Positions 22,572 to 29,974 of a stretch of 48,156 nt of DNA are shown piece by piece. Below the pieces are notes generated by a model. It made no database searches. It was given only the letters and a program-made list of their open reading frames with translations, and had not been told where the DNA came from. Source of the DNA: Bacteroidota bacterium (GTDB lineage: Bacteria > Bacteroidota > Bacteroidia > JABEUT01); assembly GCA_013285805.1 (NCBI GenBank), contig JABDGY010000012.1:1-48156 (forward strand), in the 5' to 3' direction. How positions within the stretch are numbered: position 1 is the first letter of the stretch; the number at the start of each line of letters is the position of its first letter. A program made the translations under genes and the position numbers.

Positions 22572-23105
22572 ATGAAAAAGGTATTATTACTTACCACCTT
22601 GATAATTTCATGCCATTTATTTGCTAAGCAAAAAAACGATACTATTATTTCTGCCTCCAAAGGCACAATAATATGTAAAATAAAAACCGTTGAAAATGAA
22701 AACATCTATTACTATGTAGGCGATGTTTGCAAATTTATTTCGCTTAGCGATGTAAGCTATTATAGCGGCCACGGAAAGGTTAACCATAATTTTGACAGTA
22801 AACATACTCCCCAATGGCAATATAAACCCGACAGCAATAAATATACTGAACTTGTGTGCATACCACATTTAAGTATAGCAGGTGTATTGTTAGCCGGAGA
22901 AGTAAATCCGGCCCAGCGATTCTTTATTTATGTAAATGCAAATTCAGACTCGGCCACCAATAAAAGCCTTACACCTTTTATTTATCCGATCGACGCGCTT
23001 AATTTCTTTGCAAAAAAAGGATTTGACCTGAAATATATCTACTCCGTTTATGAGGGTACAAGTAAAGACCTTGAAATAAGGCACTATATTCTTGAAAAGA
23101 ATTAG
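22572..23105 (+). CDS. Small exported protein of unknown function (177 aa)
   Basis: Not recognised. The first 18 residues (MKKVLLLTTLIISCHLFA) look like a signal peptide; the Cys at 14 is not in a convincing lipobox. The body has short beta-prone strands (GTIICKIKTVENENIYY), a pattern common in small Bacteroidota envelope proteins, with no catalytic motif evident. It lies 84 bp after yidC on the same strand, and its stop overlaps the end of the convergent DedA gene by 4 bp. It could be co-transcribed with yidC; no terminator was seen between them. Confidence 0.75.
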   Translation: MKKVLLLTTLIISCHLFAKQKNDTIISASKGTIICKIKTVENENIYYYVGDVCKFISLSDVSYYSGHGKVNHNFDSKHTPQWQYKPDSNKYTELVCIPHLSIAGVLLAGEVNPAQRFFIYVNANSDSATNKSLTPFIYPIDALNFFAKKGFDLKYIYSVYEGTSKDLEIRHYILEKN

Positions 23106-23707
23106 TTTTCTTTGAGTTGTCTGCGCCTGAAGTAGCGGCCAACAAAAATAATTCCAACCAGCAGAACTGCTGCAACAATTATATGTTCAACGGCCCCTGC
23201 ATCTTTCATGGCTATGCTCCAGTAAGGGCCAAGCAAATAACCAAGCAGAACAAGGCCACTGTTCCATGTAATGGAAGTAATAATGATTGCCGTAAGCATT
23301 TTTTTGCGGTCGAGACCAACCATTCCTGCCACTACCGGTACATAGCCACGAATAAAAGGAGTATAACGCGCAATGTAAATACCTACCATTCCGCGTTTGT
23401 TCATGCGGTTTTTCATTCGTTCAATATTTTCGCCCTTTAGTGGTATCCAGCGCGGGCTGTGCTCGGTAATCCATTTGCTGAATGAATAAAAAAGGAAATA
23501 GATAAGCGACGATCCCAGAATATCGGCCACTATGGAAGAACCTGCCGACTGAAAAAAACCGAAAATGCCTGTATATGAAAGATACCCGCAGAAAATAAGC
23601 ATCAGTTCATTGGTGGCAGGATTGGGTATGCCTATCTGCTGCAGGAAAACCAGCAGGAATATGGCCATGTAGCCATGTTCGTTTAAAAATTGTGATACTT
23701 GCTCCAT
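23102..23707 (-). CDS. DedA family membrane protein 1 (201 aa)
   Basis: DedA/SNARE-associated family (PF09335-type): polytopic inner-membrane proteins, some of which flip lipid carriers such as undecaprenyl phosphate or phosphatidylethanolamine, and which affect envelope integrity. Visible signatures are an N-terminal helix with FLQQIGIPNPATNEL (re-entrant loop), GSSLIYFLFY, the conserved segment ARYTPFIRGYVPVVAG carrying the functionally important Arg, and a C-terminal helix followed by a basic tail (RYFRRRQLKEN). Its substrate cannot be told from sequence. The paralogue immediately upstream shares the same layout, so this is a tandem duplication. Confidence 0.92.
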   Translation of the reverse strand: MEQVSQFLNEHGYMAIFLLVFLQQIGIPNPATNELMLIFCGYLSYTGIFGFFQSAGSSIVADILGSSLIYFLFYSFSKWITEHSPRWIPLKGENIERMKNRMNKRGMVGIYIARYTPFIRGYVPVVAGMVGLDRKKMLTAIIITSITWNSGLVLLGYLLGPYWSIAMKDAGAVEHIIVAAVLLVGIIFVGRYFRRRQLKEN

Positions 23708-23778
23708 CCCTCTGATTTTTTTTTGGGGATAGCGAATATATTAAATTATTGTTACGTTGGTGTTAACGGAGGGTTAAA

Positions 23779-24396
23779 TCACTTATCTTCCTCTAATTGC
23801 CTGCGTGTAAAATACCTGCCTACAACAATGAACAAAATTGAAACCACTACTAAAACTATAACATTTTCAACCGCGCCTGCATCCTTAATAACCTTGTTCC
23901 AGTAAGGGCCGAGCAGCATGCCAACCAGTACAAGCCCTCCGCTCCATGTTACAGCCGATATAATTACCGTGCTTAAGAATTTTTTGCGCTCCATGTGTAT
24001 CATGCCGGCCACTACCGACACATAGCCCCGCAGAAAGGGAGTGAGCCTGCCTATGTATATGCTCCACAATCCGCGTTTCAATACATGCTTTTTCAATCGC
24101 TCTATTGTTTTTCCTGTAAATGGTATCCACTTGGGGCTATGTTCAAGTATCCATTTACTAAAGGAAAAGAAAACAAAATATAAAATGGAAGTACCAATAA
24201 AATCGGCTGAAATGGAGATAACAACTACTTTATAGAAATTGAGTACTCCTGTGTAACACAGGTAGCCGCTGAATAATAAAACAAGTTCGTTGGTTATAGG
24301 GTTGGGAATCCCGAGCTCCTGCAGAAAGACAAAAGCAAAAATTGCATAATACCCGTACCTGGAAAGGAAATCGGCTAGTTCCGGTAATTTATCCAT
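23779..24396 (-). CDS. DedA family membrane protein 2 (205 aa)
   Basis: Same family as the neighbour at 23102-23707, with matching motifs: FLQELGIPNPITNEL, GTSILYFVFFSFSKWILEHSPKWIPF, GRLTPFLRGYVSVVAG and the tail RYFTRRQLEEDK. Gene order and a 71-bp gap on the same strand suggest the two are co-transcribed, this one first. Conservation is highest in the loop and Arg motifs and lower in the second and last helices. Whether the two proteins form a heteromer or handle different lipids is unknown. Confidence 0.92.
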   Translation of the reverse strand: MDKLPELADFLSRYGYYAIFAFVFLQELGIPNPITNELVLLFSGYLCYTGVLNFYKVVVISISADFIGTSILYFVFFSFSKWILEHSPKWIPFTGKTIERLKKHVLKRGLWSIYIGRLTPFLRGYVSVVAGMIHMERKKFLSTVIISAVTWSGGLVLVGMLLGPYWNKVIKDAGAVENVIVLVVVSILFIVVGRYFTRRQLEEDK

Positions 24397-25832: not shown

Positions 25833-25850
25833 GAATGACAAATGTCATTC
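25833..25850. promoter_or_regulatory. Palindromic operator, TGAC-N4-GTCA type
   Basis: GAATGACAAATGTCATTC is an 8-bp inverted repeat around a 2-nt spacer. The TGAC-N4-GTCA core resembles half-sites of CRP/FNR-family regulators (consensus TTGAC-N4-GTCAA for DNR/HcpR-like members). It is centred about 86 bp before the lipoprotein ATG, compatible with an upstream activator site. A near-match -7 box, TAACATTG, lies at 25893. Confidence 0.6.
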
Positions 25851-25927
25851 CCCATTATGATGGTTATCAGGGCAAGGGCAAAGCTTGTATTGTAACATTG
25901 TAGTAAATATTTAAACGAACAAAACCC

Positions 25928-26314
25928 ATGAAAACTACACTGAAACTCACCCTACTCATAGCCGTTATCTCCCTGGCAAGTTGTGCTAAAAAACAAAGTG
26001 CCCGGGAATTGCTGAAAGATGACAACATGCGGGGCGATATTATGACTGCCATTTGTAACGACAGCAATATGACAAACGAAATGATTAACCGCATGAGCAC
26101 CACAGGTGCATCGCAAAAAATGCTGCCCATGAGTTGCAATATGCTGGGTAAAATTATGAGCAGCGATATAATGCGGAAGGACACTATGTTGCAGAATACG
26201 GTAATGAGCGGTATGCTGAACCTTATTGCAAAAGATTCGATACTGTGCGACAAAACTTGCGACCAGATGAACCAGACCCCAAGCATTAAACGAATACTTG
26301 AAAAGAAACACTAA
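25928..26314 (+). CDS. Met/Cys-rich small lipoprotein of unknown function (128 aa)
   Basis: The signal peptide ends in a lipobox (ISLASC, Cys at residue 19), so the protein is an envelope lipoprotein. The mature part is predicted helical, with 14 methionines and 4 further cysteines in about 110 residues, spaced as xxM repeats (DNM, DIM, SNM, NEM, NRM, KIM, DTM). Such composition can reflect soft-metal binding (Cu or Ag), but no known copper motif is recognised, so this is a hypothesis. It lies 19 bp before the universal stress protein and is very likely co-transcribed with it. The palindromic operator upstream suggests redox- or stress-linked control. Confidence 0.8.
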   Translation: MKTTLKLTLLIAVISLASCAKKQSARELLKDDNMRGDIMTAICNDSNMTNEMINRMSTTGASQKMLPMSCNMLGKIMSSDIMRKDTMLQNTVMSGMLNLIAKDSILCDKTCDQMNQTPSIKRILEKKH

Positions 26315-26333
26315 TTATTAAACCTTAAACACT

Positions 26334-27254
26334 ATGAGCTCTCTGAATTTCAAAAAAACCCTCGTTCCAATCGACTTTTCCGAAACCGCATTGCGGGCTG
26401 TTGAACATGCCACCTTACTGGCAAAAAAGAACAACGCGGAAATTACATTCATACACGTGGAAGAACCAAAGAGCATGAACTTCGCGCATACCGCAAGTAA
26501 TTTTAACATGCCCGTTGACACCGACTTTGTGCACAGGCAGAAAATAGCCGATGCGGAAGAACGTGTTGAAGAAGAAATGACAGAAGCGCTGAAGGGCCTT
26601 GAAAACAAAATAAAAAGGCAGAAAATTGCCGTAGCTGACTCAATAATTGAGACAGGCAAAATATCGAAAAAAATTGCCGCAACCGCAAAAAAAATACAGG
26701 CCGATATTATTGTTATGGGTACCCACGGAGCAAGCGGGATGCGTGAATTTATGGTGGGCAGCAACACCTATAAGGTAATAAGCGAGTCACATATTCCCGT
26801 ATTATCTATACGCGAGGAATTTATTGTACCGGGCTTTAAAAACATTCTGCTACCCTTTATTGATGCCCCACACATGCGCGAACATGTTGACTATGCTATA
26901 AAGCTGGCAAAAATATATGGCGCTACGCTTAATATACTTGGCATTGATAATGAAAGGAATCCTGACCATTTCAGAAAAGTGCGCCGCGAAGCTGAGCAGA
27001 TTAAGGGATTTGCCGACAAGGCAAACGTTAAATCGACTATTGATGTATTTCCCTCTTCATATATGAATGAGTTTATTATGGGCTATGGCGAAAAGAAAAA
27101 AGTAGATTTGATTGTTATTATGGCTGATATCAATAAAGTGGGGGTTATGCAATATTTAACCGGCCCTGTGGTGCAGCAAATTGTAAATCATTCGCCAATA
27201 CCTGTACTCAGCATTCCTATGCACTTTAACCCGAAATTATCGCCTTATGCGTAA
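26334..27254 (+). CDS. Tandem universal stress protein (UspA family, 306 aa)
   Basis: Two Usp domains in tandem. Domain 1 (about 5-160) keeps the ATP-binding signature G-x2-G-x9-G-S (GTHGASG...VGS) and ends IPVLSI. Domain 2 (about 165-300) ends IPVLSI as well but has MADINKVG where the glycine loop should be, so it probably does not bind ATP in the same way. An extra helical segment within domain 1 (AEERVEEEMTEALKGLENKIK) lengthens it. Cytoplasmic stress-response protein; two-domain forms of about 280-310 aa are common in Bacteroidota. Second gene of a two-gene operon with the Met-rich lipoprotein. Confidence 0.93.
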   Translation: MSSLNFKKTLVPIDFSETALRAVEHATLLAKKNNAEITFIHVEEPKSMNFAHTASNFNMPVDTDFVHRQKIADAEERVEEEMTEALKGLENKIKRQKIAVADSIIETGKISKKIAATAKKIQADIIVMGTHGASGMREFMVGSNTYKVISESHIPVLSIREEFIVPGFKNILLPFIDAPHMREHVDYAIKLAKIYGATLNILGIDNERNPDHFRKVRREAEQIKGFADKANVKSTIDVFPSSYMNEFIMGYGEKKKVDLIVIMADINKVGVMQYLTGPVVQQIVNHSPIPVLSIPMHFNPKLSPYA

Positions 27255-27314: not shown

Positions 27315-28028
27315 CTACTTAAAGAATATTTTCTTTGAAAGTTCTTCTTTAAAAGTTGTACTTAGGGTAACCTCGGCGGGCAGTTCTTTGCAGATTTCAG
27401 TGTTTAATACAACACTATCATGCCCCACTGAATTTATGCAATCTATGGCTACCATGTTACTCCTGTTTACCTGTATCAGTTGAGGTGCCCTTACTTTCAG
27501 TTCGTTAAAGGTATAGTCCATAAAAGTAAATCTTATTCCCCCTTTTAAAATCACCTGCTTATTGCGCGGGTCAACTTCATCAACATTTACAAATAATATA
27601 TCAGCCAACTGTATTTTGACTTTCTTCCTGCACTCCGCCACATTAAAAAGGGCATATTCAACTTGGCTCAGTATAAGTCTCGCCGCCTTTTCCAATGCCT
27701 GGTCAAGTCTTTTTTTAAGAAAAGGCTTCGTAACCACATCAATAGGGTTCAGGCCCAGGGCTTCTGCAAGTTTATCTTCACTGGCCGTAAGAAAAATTAC
27801 AGGTTTTTTACCGATTAATTGCGCTACCGAAATACCGTTCAGGCCCGGCATATTTATATCGAGTATACACAGGTCGAAATCAAGGGTATATAAGGTCTTA
27901 ATAAACTCGTTTGAGCTTCTGAAGTTGTACTTTATTTCTACTGTAGGCGAATCAATGTAATATTCCTTTAGGTCATCGTGAATATGTAAATCGTCGTCAA
28001 CTACAGCAATTTTTATCCTGCTATGCAT
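27315..28028 (-). CDS. LytTR-family response regulator 1 (237 aa)
   Basis: N-terminal receiver domain (about 5-120): acidic cluster DDD at 11-13, phospho-acceptor Asp57 in LCILDINMPG, Thr81 and Lys101 (VTKPF). C-terminal LytTR DNA-binding domain (about 135-230) with QVNRSNMVAIDCIN. The linker resembles that of PypR/LytT regulators. No histidine kinase lies beside it, so the partner must be elsewhere. Transcribed alone, toward the convergent usp gene. Confidence 0.92.
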   Translation of the reverse strand: MHSRIKIAVVDDDLHIHDDLKEYYIDSPTVEIKYNFRSSNEFIKTLYTLDFDLCILDINMPGLNGISVAQLIGKKPVIFLTASEDKLAEALGLNPIDVVTKPFLKKRLDQALEKAARLILSQVEYALFNVAECRKKVKIQLADILFVNVDEVDPRNKQVILKGGIRFTFMDYTFNELKVRAPQLIQVNRSNMVAIDCINSVGHDSVVLNTEICKELPAEVTLSTTFKEELSKKIFFK

Positions 28029-29287: not shown

Positions 29288-29974
29288 TTATTGCAGGGTA
29301 TTTATTTGCTTAATGAAGTTTTCCTTGTATAGCGCCCCAACAGGAATGGAGGTATCATTTATAAAAATAGTAGTGTCTTCTACTTCCTTTATATTCTCTA
29401 TTTGAACAATATAAGAACGGTGTACACGTACAAACTTAGTTGTTTGCAATTTTGTTTCAAGTGATTTAAGTGTGGCATGTATAATAAACCGCTCGTCTTT
29501 AGTATGTACCGTAATATAATCACCCAGTGCTTCTATCCACAAAATATCCTTAACAGGTACTTTATGGAGAACAGAATTTTTCTTAATAAAAAACCAATCA
29601 CGGCTCATGTTAACCTGGTCTTCAGTAGCTGAGGCTTTTACTTTAGCCAGCGCTTTAAGAAAGCGAGGAAGGGTTATGGGTTTTATAAGATAATCGGCCA
29701 CATTAAGGTCGAATGCATCAAGTGCATATTCTGTATGCGAAGTAATGAGTATTACCTGGGGCTTGTTGTCAAGTGCCTTAAGCATTTCCATGCCGTTCAT
29801 TTCAGGCATTTCTATGTCAAGGAAAAGTAAATCAATGTTTTCTTTACGTAAGGTATTTATGGCCTCTACCGGAGTAGAGCAGGTTTTGATTACATTAAGA
29901 TACTCTACTTGCTTTACCATCTGTGTTATAACAGCTCTTGAAGCGTCGTCGTCGTCTACAATAATACAGTTCAT
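29288..29974 (-). CDS. LytTR-family response regulator 2 (228 aa)
   Basis: Receiver domain (about 1-118): DDDD at 7-10, phospho-acceptor Asp53 in LLFLDIEMPEMNG, and DYLIKPITL carrying the conserved Lys. The C-terminal LytTR domain (about 130-225) has FFIKKNSVLHKV, ILWIEALGDYITVHT and FVRVHRSYIV. This is the classic Bacteroidota LytT/BtrR arrangement that normally pairs with a LytS/YpdA-type kinase, none of which is in the window. It lies directly downstream of the T9SS cargo gene D on the same strand but behind a hairpin, so it is probably separately transcribed. Confidence 0.94.
   Translation of the reverse strand: MNCIIVDDDDASRAVITQMVKQVEYLNVIKTCSTPVEAINTLRKENIDLLFLDIEMPEMNGMEMLKALDNKPQVILITSHTEYALDAFDLNVADYLIKPITLPRFLKALAKVKASATEDQVNMSRDWFFIKKNSVLHKVPVKDILWIEALGDYITVHTKDERFIIHATLKSLETKLQTTKFVRVHRSYIVQIENIKEVEDTTIFINDTSIPVGALYKENFIKQINTLQ

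Follow-up and report, generated by a model that had tools for sequence, protein, structure and literature searches.

A Met/Cys-rich lipoprotein and a universal stress protein behind the tandem operator of a candidate Crp-type stress regulon in Bacteroidia

Results

A lipoprotein gene and a Usp gene behind paired palindromes

The stretch analyzed (the window; 48,156 nucleotides) corresponds to contig C12 in G000, a fragmented genome of 2.05 Mb at 60% completeness. It contains two adjoining genes preceded by a pair of palindromic sites and a putative promoter element (Table 1). The product of the first gene has a signal peptide followed by a lipobox ending at Cys19, and its mature chain of 110 residues includes 14 Met and 5 Cys, counting the lipid-bearing Cys. 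A sequence-only reading of this DNA had described it as an unrecognised, Met/Cys-rich envelope lipoprotein; both parts of that description stand, and neither Pfam nor NCBIfam has a model for the family. The second gene, which the same reading called a universal stress protein (Usp), lies 19 bp downstream and matches PF00582 with an E value of 3.6e-36 (125.2 bits, where the cut-off is 24). The nucleotide-binding motif of Usps is G-2x-G-9x-G-S/T. Its presence here as GTHGASGMREFMVGS (G-2x-G-9x-G-S, residue 129), together with the PF00582 match, confirms the assignment. Judged by the short gap, the two genes are probably co-transcribed.

Table 1. Features of the lipoprotein-Usp locus (positions in the window)
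Feature	Position	Strand	Remarks
Distal half-operator TGACAAATGTCA	25836-25847		Member of the tandem pattern; predicted centre -63.5; matched in both genus orthologues
Proximal half-operator TGATGGTTATCA	25858-25869		In 22-bp register with the distal site; predicted centre -41.5
Putative sigma-A -7 box TAACATTG	25893-25900	+	5/6 of TAnnTTTG; +29 from the proximal centre
Met/Cys-rich lipoprotein ORF	25928-26314	+	128 aa; no matching Pfam or NCBIfam family
Tandem-domain Usp	26334-27254	+	306 aa; PF00582, two domains

Two other features of the neighborhood were recorded. On the minus strand, two response-regulator genes lie close together (27315-28028 and 29288-29974); the former has Response_reg and LytTR domains, the latter is similar by eye, and no kinase was recognised beside them. 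At 23102-24396, two adjoining and similar membrane proteins, named DedA-like by eye, appear to be a tandem duplication.

The palindrome is half of a tandem operator

The TGAC-N4-GTCA palindrome that the sequence-only reading had noted upstream of the pair is present at the distal site, within GAATGACA-AA-TGTCATTC (25833-25850). A second palindrome, TGATGGTTATCA, was overlooked by that reading and stands in exact 22-bp register with the first. Thus, the window carries TGA-N6-TCA twice (25836-25869), an arrangement that occurred once in the window vs not at all in 100 Markov-1 control windows. Calling the palindrome CRP/FNR-like was right, but it is one half of a tandem operator common to many genes. 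Taken singly, TGAC-N4-GTCA was at chance level in the window (1 observed vs 0.41 expected), and the genome search that had been proposed for it found 11 places across G000 vs 28 for a mirrored control, so we rejected enrichment of the single palindrome. The operator is conserved: the tandem stands at -92/-70 from the start codon in the window and upstream of the lipoprotein gene in both genus orthologues, at -91/-69 in G006 and at -96/-74 in G007.

The genus, the family, and the order comprise the same 11 genomes, and a search at the level of the order therefore added nothing. Across these genomes, the tandem with 22-bp register (tandem-22) had 67 sites vs 2 for the mirrored control, with none in G003 and G004. 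When any of 31 spacings was allowed, 80 places matched in the genus; the spacing was 22 bp in 46 of them and 23 bp in 11. The stretches fetched for inspection held 57 of the 67 sites, 52 of them intergenic by our own ORF calls. Among 395 sampled Bacteroidia genomes, 228 had at least one tandem-22 match, while the mirrored control was non-zero in 8. One genome, G318, had 109 tandem matches (e.g., L220) vs 63 for the control, which is probably a repeat, and it was left out of the regulator counts.

A fixed distance to the -7 box

The -7 box TAnnTTTG was absent from every tandem-site query. Beside 60 tandems (120 windows of 110 bp each), 23 of 35 occurrences of the box begin at +29 from the proximal centre, and the box takes this same position in the window, G006, and G007. 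With at least five of six positions matched, at +28 to +30 and in one direction, it accompanied 49 of the 57 examined tandems vs 5% of random places. Among sites lacking an upstream partner, a +29 box was found in only 4 of 358 windows; these sites peak at +51 (27 cases), which reflects the distal halves of the tandems just described. Outside the genus, at 30 loci in 30 genomes that include other families, 9 of 22 boxes were at +29. According to PMC9723704, the TAnnTTTG box of Flavobacterium psychrophilum spans -12 to -5, which by transfer puts the proximal site at a deduced -41.5 and the distal site at -63.5. Such positions would constitute class II activator geometry, with a predicted transcript start for the lipoprotein operon at about 25905. 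In our judgement, the tandem operator and its promoter geometry almost certainly hold, and it is very probable that the operon in the window belongs to the tandem-22 regulon.

A receiver-containing Crp-type protein as candidate regulator

A candidate for reading the tandem is RR-Crp, a response regulator with a receiver, a cNMP-binding fold, and HTH_Crp. In G000, its gene (C7:26745-27797; Response_reg, cNMP_binding, and HTH_Crp_2 in Pfam) directly follows that of a PAS-HisKA-HATPase kinase (C7:25087-26733, by Pfam), on a contig that also holds a Usp cluster and six tandem sites. In G016, a member of another family, genes named by eye as Usp, kinase, and RR-Crp follow one another as in G000, flanked on the far side by DoxX-like and Usp-like genes, likewise named by eye. 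Relatives of RR-Crp at E <= 1e-40 were found in 198 of 395 Bacteroidia genomes. Tandem sites occurred in 160 of the 198 genomes with RR-Crp vs 67 of 196 without it (G318 left out), and their mean number per genome was 3.06 vs 0.80. The Fisher test gave p = 2.6e-21, a value that ignores kinship and overstates independence because the genomes share descent. The two are also linked in position: among the sites and genes listed, an RR-Crp gene is no more than 15 kb away from 22 of 70 sites, which are spread over 11 of 18 genomes, where random placement in 4 Mb would give about 0.5. This count draws on 75 listed tandem sites, of which 70 fall in the 18 genomes with a listed regulator position, at least one regulator per genome.

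The match between regulator and tandem is not one-to-one, since 38 of the 198 RR-Crp genomes have no tandem-22 (the congeners G003 and G004 among them) and 24 of the 196 genomes without an RR-Crp match have at least three sites. Examples of the latter are G048 and G151, of family f39, which have six tandem-22 sites each and no RR-Crp match at E <= 1e-40; another Crp-type protein may therefore use the operator there. G006 (52% complete) has tandem sites and no Crp-type HTH match. One paralogue of RR-Crp (L109, on G009:C122) has a receiver that appears degenerate by eye, which hints at a phosphorylation-independent copy. Among 60 listed chains of solved structures (of 135 matched), none spans both the receiver and the Crp parts. 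Given co-occurrence and linkage, RR-Crp is probably the regulator that reads the tandem.

Genes facing tandem sites

The genes that face tandem sites include, by Pfam, Ferritin/Dps, BON, DoxX, two P-type ATPases, and a di-haem cytochrome c peroxidase. For another target, the best NCBIfam match was cytochrome c oxidase subunit II, under the model cut-off. Further targets, named by eye, are Usps, DnaJ, PPDK-like, alcohol dehydrogenase-like, and nitroreductase-like proteins, and cytochrome c proteins. This set resembles low-oxygen and dormancy regulons such as that of DosR, a likeness of content and not of homology.

Relatives of the lipoprotein

Of the 10 other genomes of the genus, two have an orthologue, G006 (57% identity) and G007 (43%). 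All three proteins share Cys70, Cys107, and Cys111, together with 5 of the 14 mature Met. A profile search matched 20 of 395 Bacteroidia genomes, some matches being weak and put aside, and a broader profile matched 13 of 395 genomes of the phylum. Three candidates (L083, L085, L086) were put aside after their translations were read, and two weak ones (G374, G178) were left out of the alignment of 16 members (A2) but kept in a neighbor count of 25 loci. No member of A2 matched a named copper-protein family in Pfam or NCBIfam. A peptide-pattern search of GTDB contigs and a search of plasmids yielded no relatives. AlphaFold gave a poor model with 3 alignment rows (pLDDT 54.7) and an all-helical one with 16 rows (pLDDT 73.0, pTM 0.41). 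With Foldseek against the PDB there were only two matches, both with E >= 9, and a profile search of solved structures turned up helical proteins that were either designed or unrelated (best E 0.006).

Several relatives have copper-related neighbors. An HMA-type P-type ATPase lies within three genes of the relatives in G502, G682, and G149, and a multicopper oxidase within three genes of those in G171, G141, and the second copy in G315. The G225 relative adjoins DUF326, which we take to be a copper-storage family. At the window locus, no copper gene was recognised beside the lipoprotein. The tandem was sought upstream of the 16 A2 members, a set to which the copper-linked G502, G682, G171, and second G315 relatives do not belong; it is absent upstream of the copper-linked G149, G225, and G141 members. 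In G224 and G373, both with RR-Crp, a tandem match of 11/12 stands at -98 with 22-bp spacing and at -95 with 23-bp spacing, respectively, making 2 of the 13 non-genus members examined. With copper-linked loci on the one hand and tandem-bearing loci on the other, the lipoprotein family therefore occurs in two settings, copper clusters and a stress regulon.

Found next to an HMA P-type ATPase, a multicopper oxidase, or DUF326, the Met-rich relatives L247, L248, L094, L250, L246, L100, and L098 (up to about 40 Met) have no model in Pfam or NCBIfam and likely represent an undescribed copper-linked lipoprotein family.

Discussion

The control of transcription is sparsely mapped in most Bacteroidota. 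Our analysis points to an element that, by sequence, is a tandem with fixed spacing and a fixed distance to the -7 box, mostly intergenic, conserved at the lipoprotein orthologues, and associated with a regulator gene. The best explanation, in which we place moderate confidence, is that the lipoprotein and Usp genes together make up one operon, which belongs to a Crp-type, two-component stress regulon of Bacteroidia with DosR-like content. In the open-access literature searched, which leaves aside most subscription journals, we recognised no description of the tandem operator or of an RR-Crp regulon. The main text of PMC8510549 predicts Crp/Fnr homologues of Flavobacteriales and Saprospiraceae to be MalR-like, and the word "receiver" is absent from it.

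The sequence-only reading had suggested a small redox- or metal-stress module in the gene pair, that is, two dedicated proteins under a palindrome of their own. The 19-bp gap favors such a module, and in G225 and G502, too, a Met-rich relative has a Usp as its neighbor. Yet these two genomes belong to one genus, and together with the window they account for all the adjoining Usps at the 25 loci (adjacency was judged by eye and with phmmer, and in G225 and G502 also with Pfam; the G225 Usp escaped phmmer; the two G315 loci were counted separately). The other 22 loci, among them both genus orthologues, have no Usp next to the lipoprotein, so conservation of the pair, which had been proposed as a check, was not borne out, and the operator serves many unrelated genes. 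A dedicated module is thus highly improbable, and the rarity of the pairing together with the shared operator supports reading the locus as an output of a stress regulon instead. The identity of the reader is a separate matter. It could be an FNR-like protein of 235-250 residues, with N-terminal Cys and no receiver, in which case the regulon would sense oxygen directly through an iron-sulfur center and RR-Crp would be a co-travelling target or neighbor. Genomes of the genus do carry FNR-like genes whose products could bind TGA-N6-TCA; the one in G000 (C7:2577-3284) has an N-terminal CxxC, finds its best model in PRK11161 (Fnr) at 104.5 of 228 bits, i.e., under the cut-off, and shares its contig with the Usp cluster. 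Tandem sites also exist in some genomes without an RR-Crp match. Enriched single sites of the TTGAT-N4-ATCAA type, as an FNR regulon should have, were nevertheless not found in the 11 genomes, where TTGAY-N4-RTCAA counted 85 vs 149 for the control, and in distant genomes the tandem sites cluster close to RR-Crp genes. We consider an FNR-like reader unlikely and retain RR-Crp as the favored regulator.

For the lipoprotein, the leading function, which we put forward tentatively from the neighbors of distant members, would be that of an envelope Cu(I)/thiol buffer. Metal stress, which the sequence-only reading had raised, is backed indirectly for the wider family by those copper-gene neighbors, and not at the window locus. 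The main alternative, which we regard as plausible but short of an even chance, is a structural or adaptor protein of the envelope that binds no metal and owes its Met to helix packing. The all-helical model fits such a role, the invariant Met among the three orthologues are few, and the G258 and G342 members near the clade of the window have few Met. Against it speak the three Cys that are invariant among the three orthologues and the genomic neighbors of the relatives: HMA-type P-type ATPases or multicopper oxidases no more than three genes away from six of them, and DUF326 next to another.

These elements can be assembled into a mechanism. The PAS kinase encoded beside RR-Crp in the Usp cluster would phosphorylate the regulator and trigger the response. 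RR-Crp would then occupy, as two dimers, both TGA-N6-TCA sites, which lie 22 bp apart with predicted centres at -63.5 and -41.5, and may switch on a sigma-A promoter whose -7 box is of the TAnnTTTG type. The trigger suggested by the target genes, low oxygen or respiratory/redox stress, is an evenly balanced proposition. Among the products, the lipoprotein, anchored in the membrane, may use its Met and Cys to buffer Cu(I) or oxidants in the envelope, and the Usp would act in the cytoplasm. In its widest form, the proposal is a Bacteroidia-wide, two-component dormancy or low-oxygen switch that deploys Usps, Dps, an oxidase, cation pumps, chaperones, and a new Met/Cys lipoprotein family; such a Bacteroidota counterpart of DosR is plausible, short of an even chance. 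The paired site marks a switch common to many Bacteroidota, so the lipoprotein and Usp genes appear to be one of its outputs and no isolated module. If this is true, an operator rule (a 22-bp tandem with the -7 box at +29), combined with a candidate regulator, would let a stress regulon be read directly off a sequence and would offer testable roles for unannotated genes such as those of the Met/Cys lipoprotein family.

Parts of this proposal have counterparts in known systems. Met-rich periplasmic copper proteins and the Csp/DUF326 copper storage proteins are known, and the lipoprotein is like them in being small, Met/Cys-rich, and located in the envelope, with relatives near copper genes. It is unlike them in having no profile match to a named family and no fold match, and in standing behind a stress operator at the window locus. 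CRP and FNR of Escherichia coli exemplify class II activation by Crp/Fnr proteins. The tandem shares with their class II sites the TGA-N6-TCA half-sites and a proximal centre deduced at -41.5; it differs in that two sites at a constant 22-bp spacing precede a Bacteroidota TAnnTTTG box, that single sites are not enriched, and that the candidate regulator has a receiver domain. With respect to gene content, there is a likeness to DosR/DevR of Mycobacterium and OsdR of Streptomyces (PMC5069765), which likewise exert two-component control over a stress set. Their output is of the LuxR type, whereas that of RR-Crp is of the Crp type, and phylum and operator differ as well. Nevertheless, the set described here shares with theirs Usps, nitroreductase-like proteins, P-type ATPases, PPDK-like proteins, and chaperones, several of them named by eye in our case.
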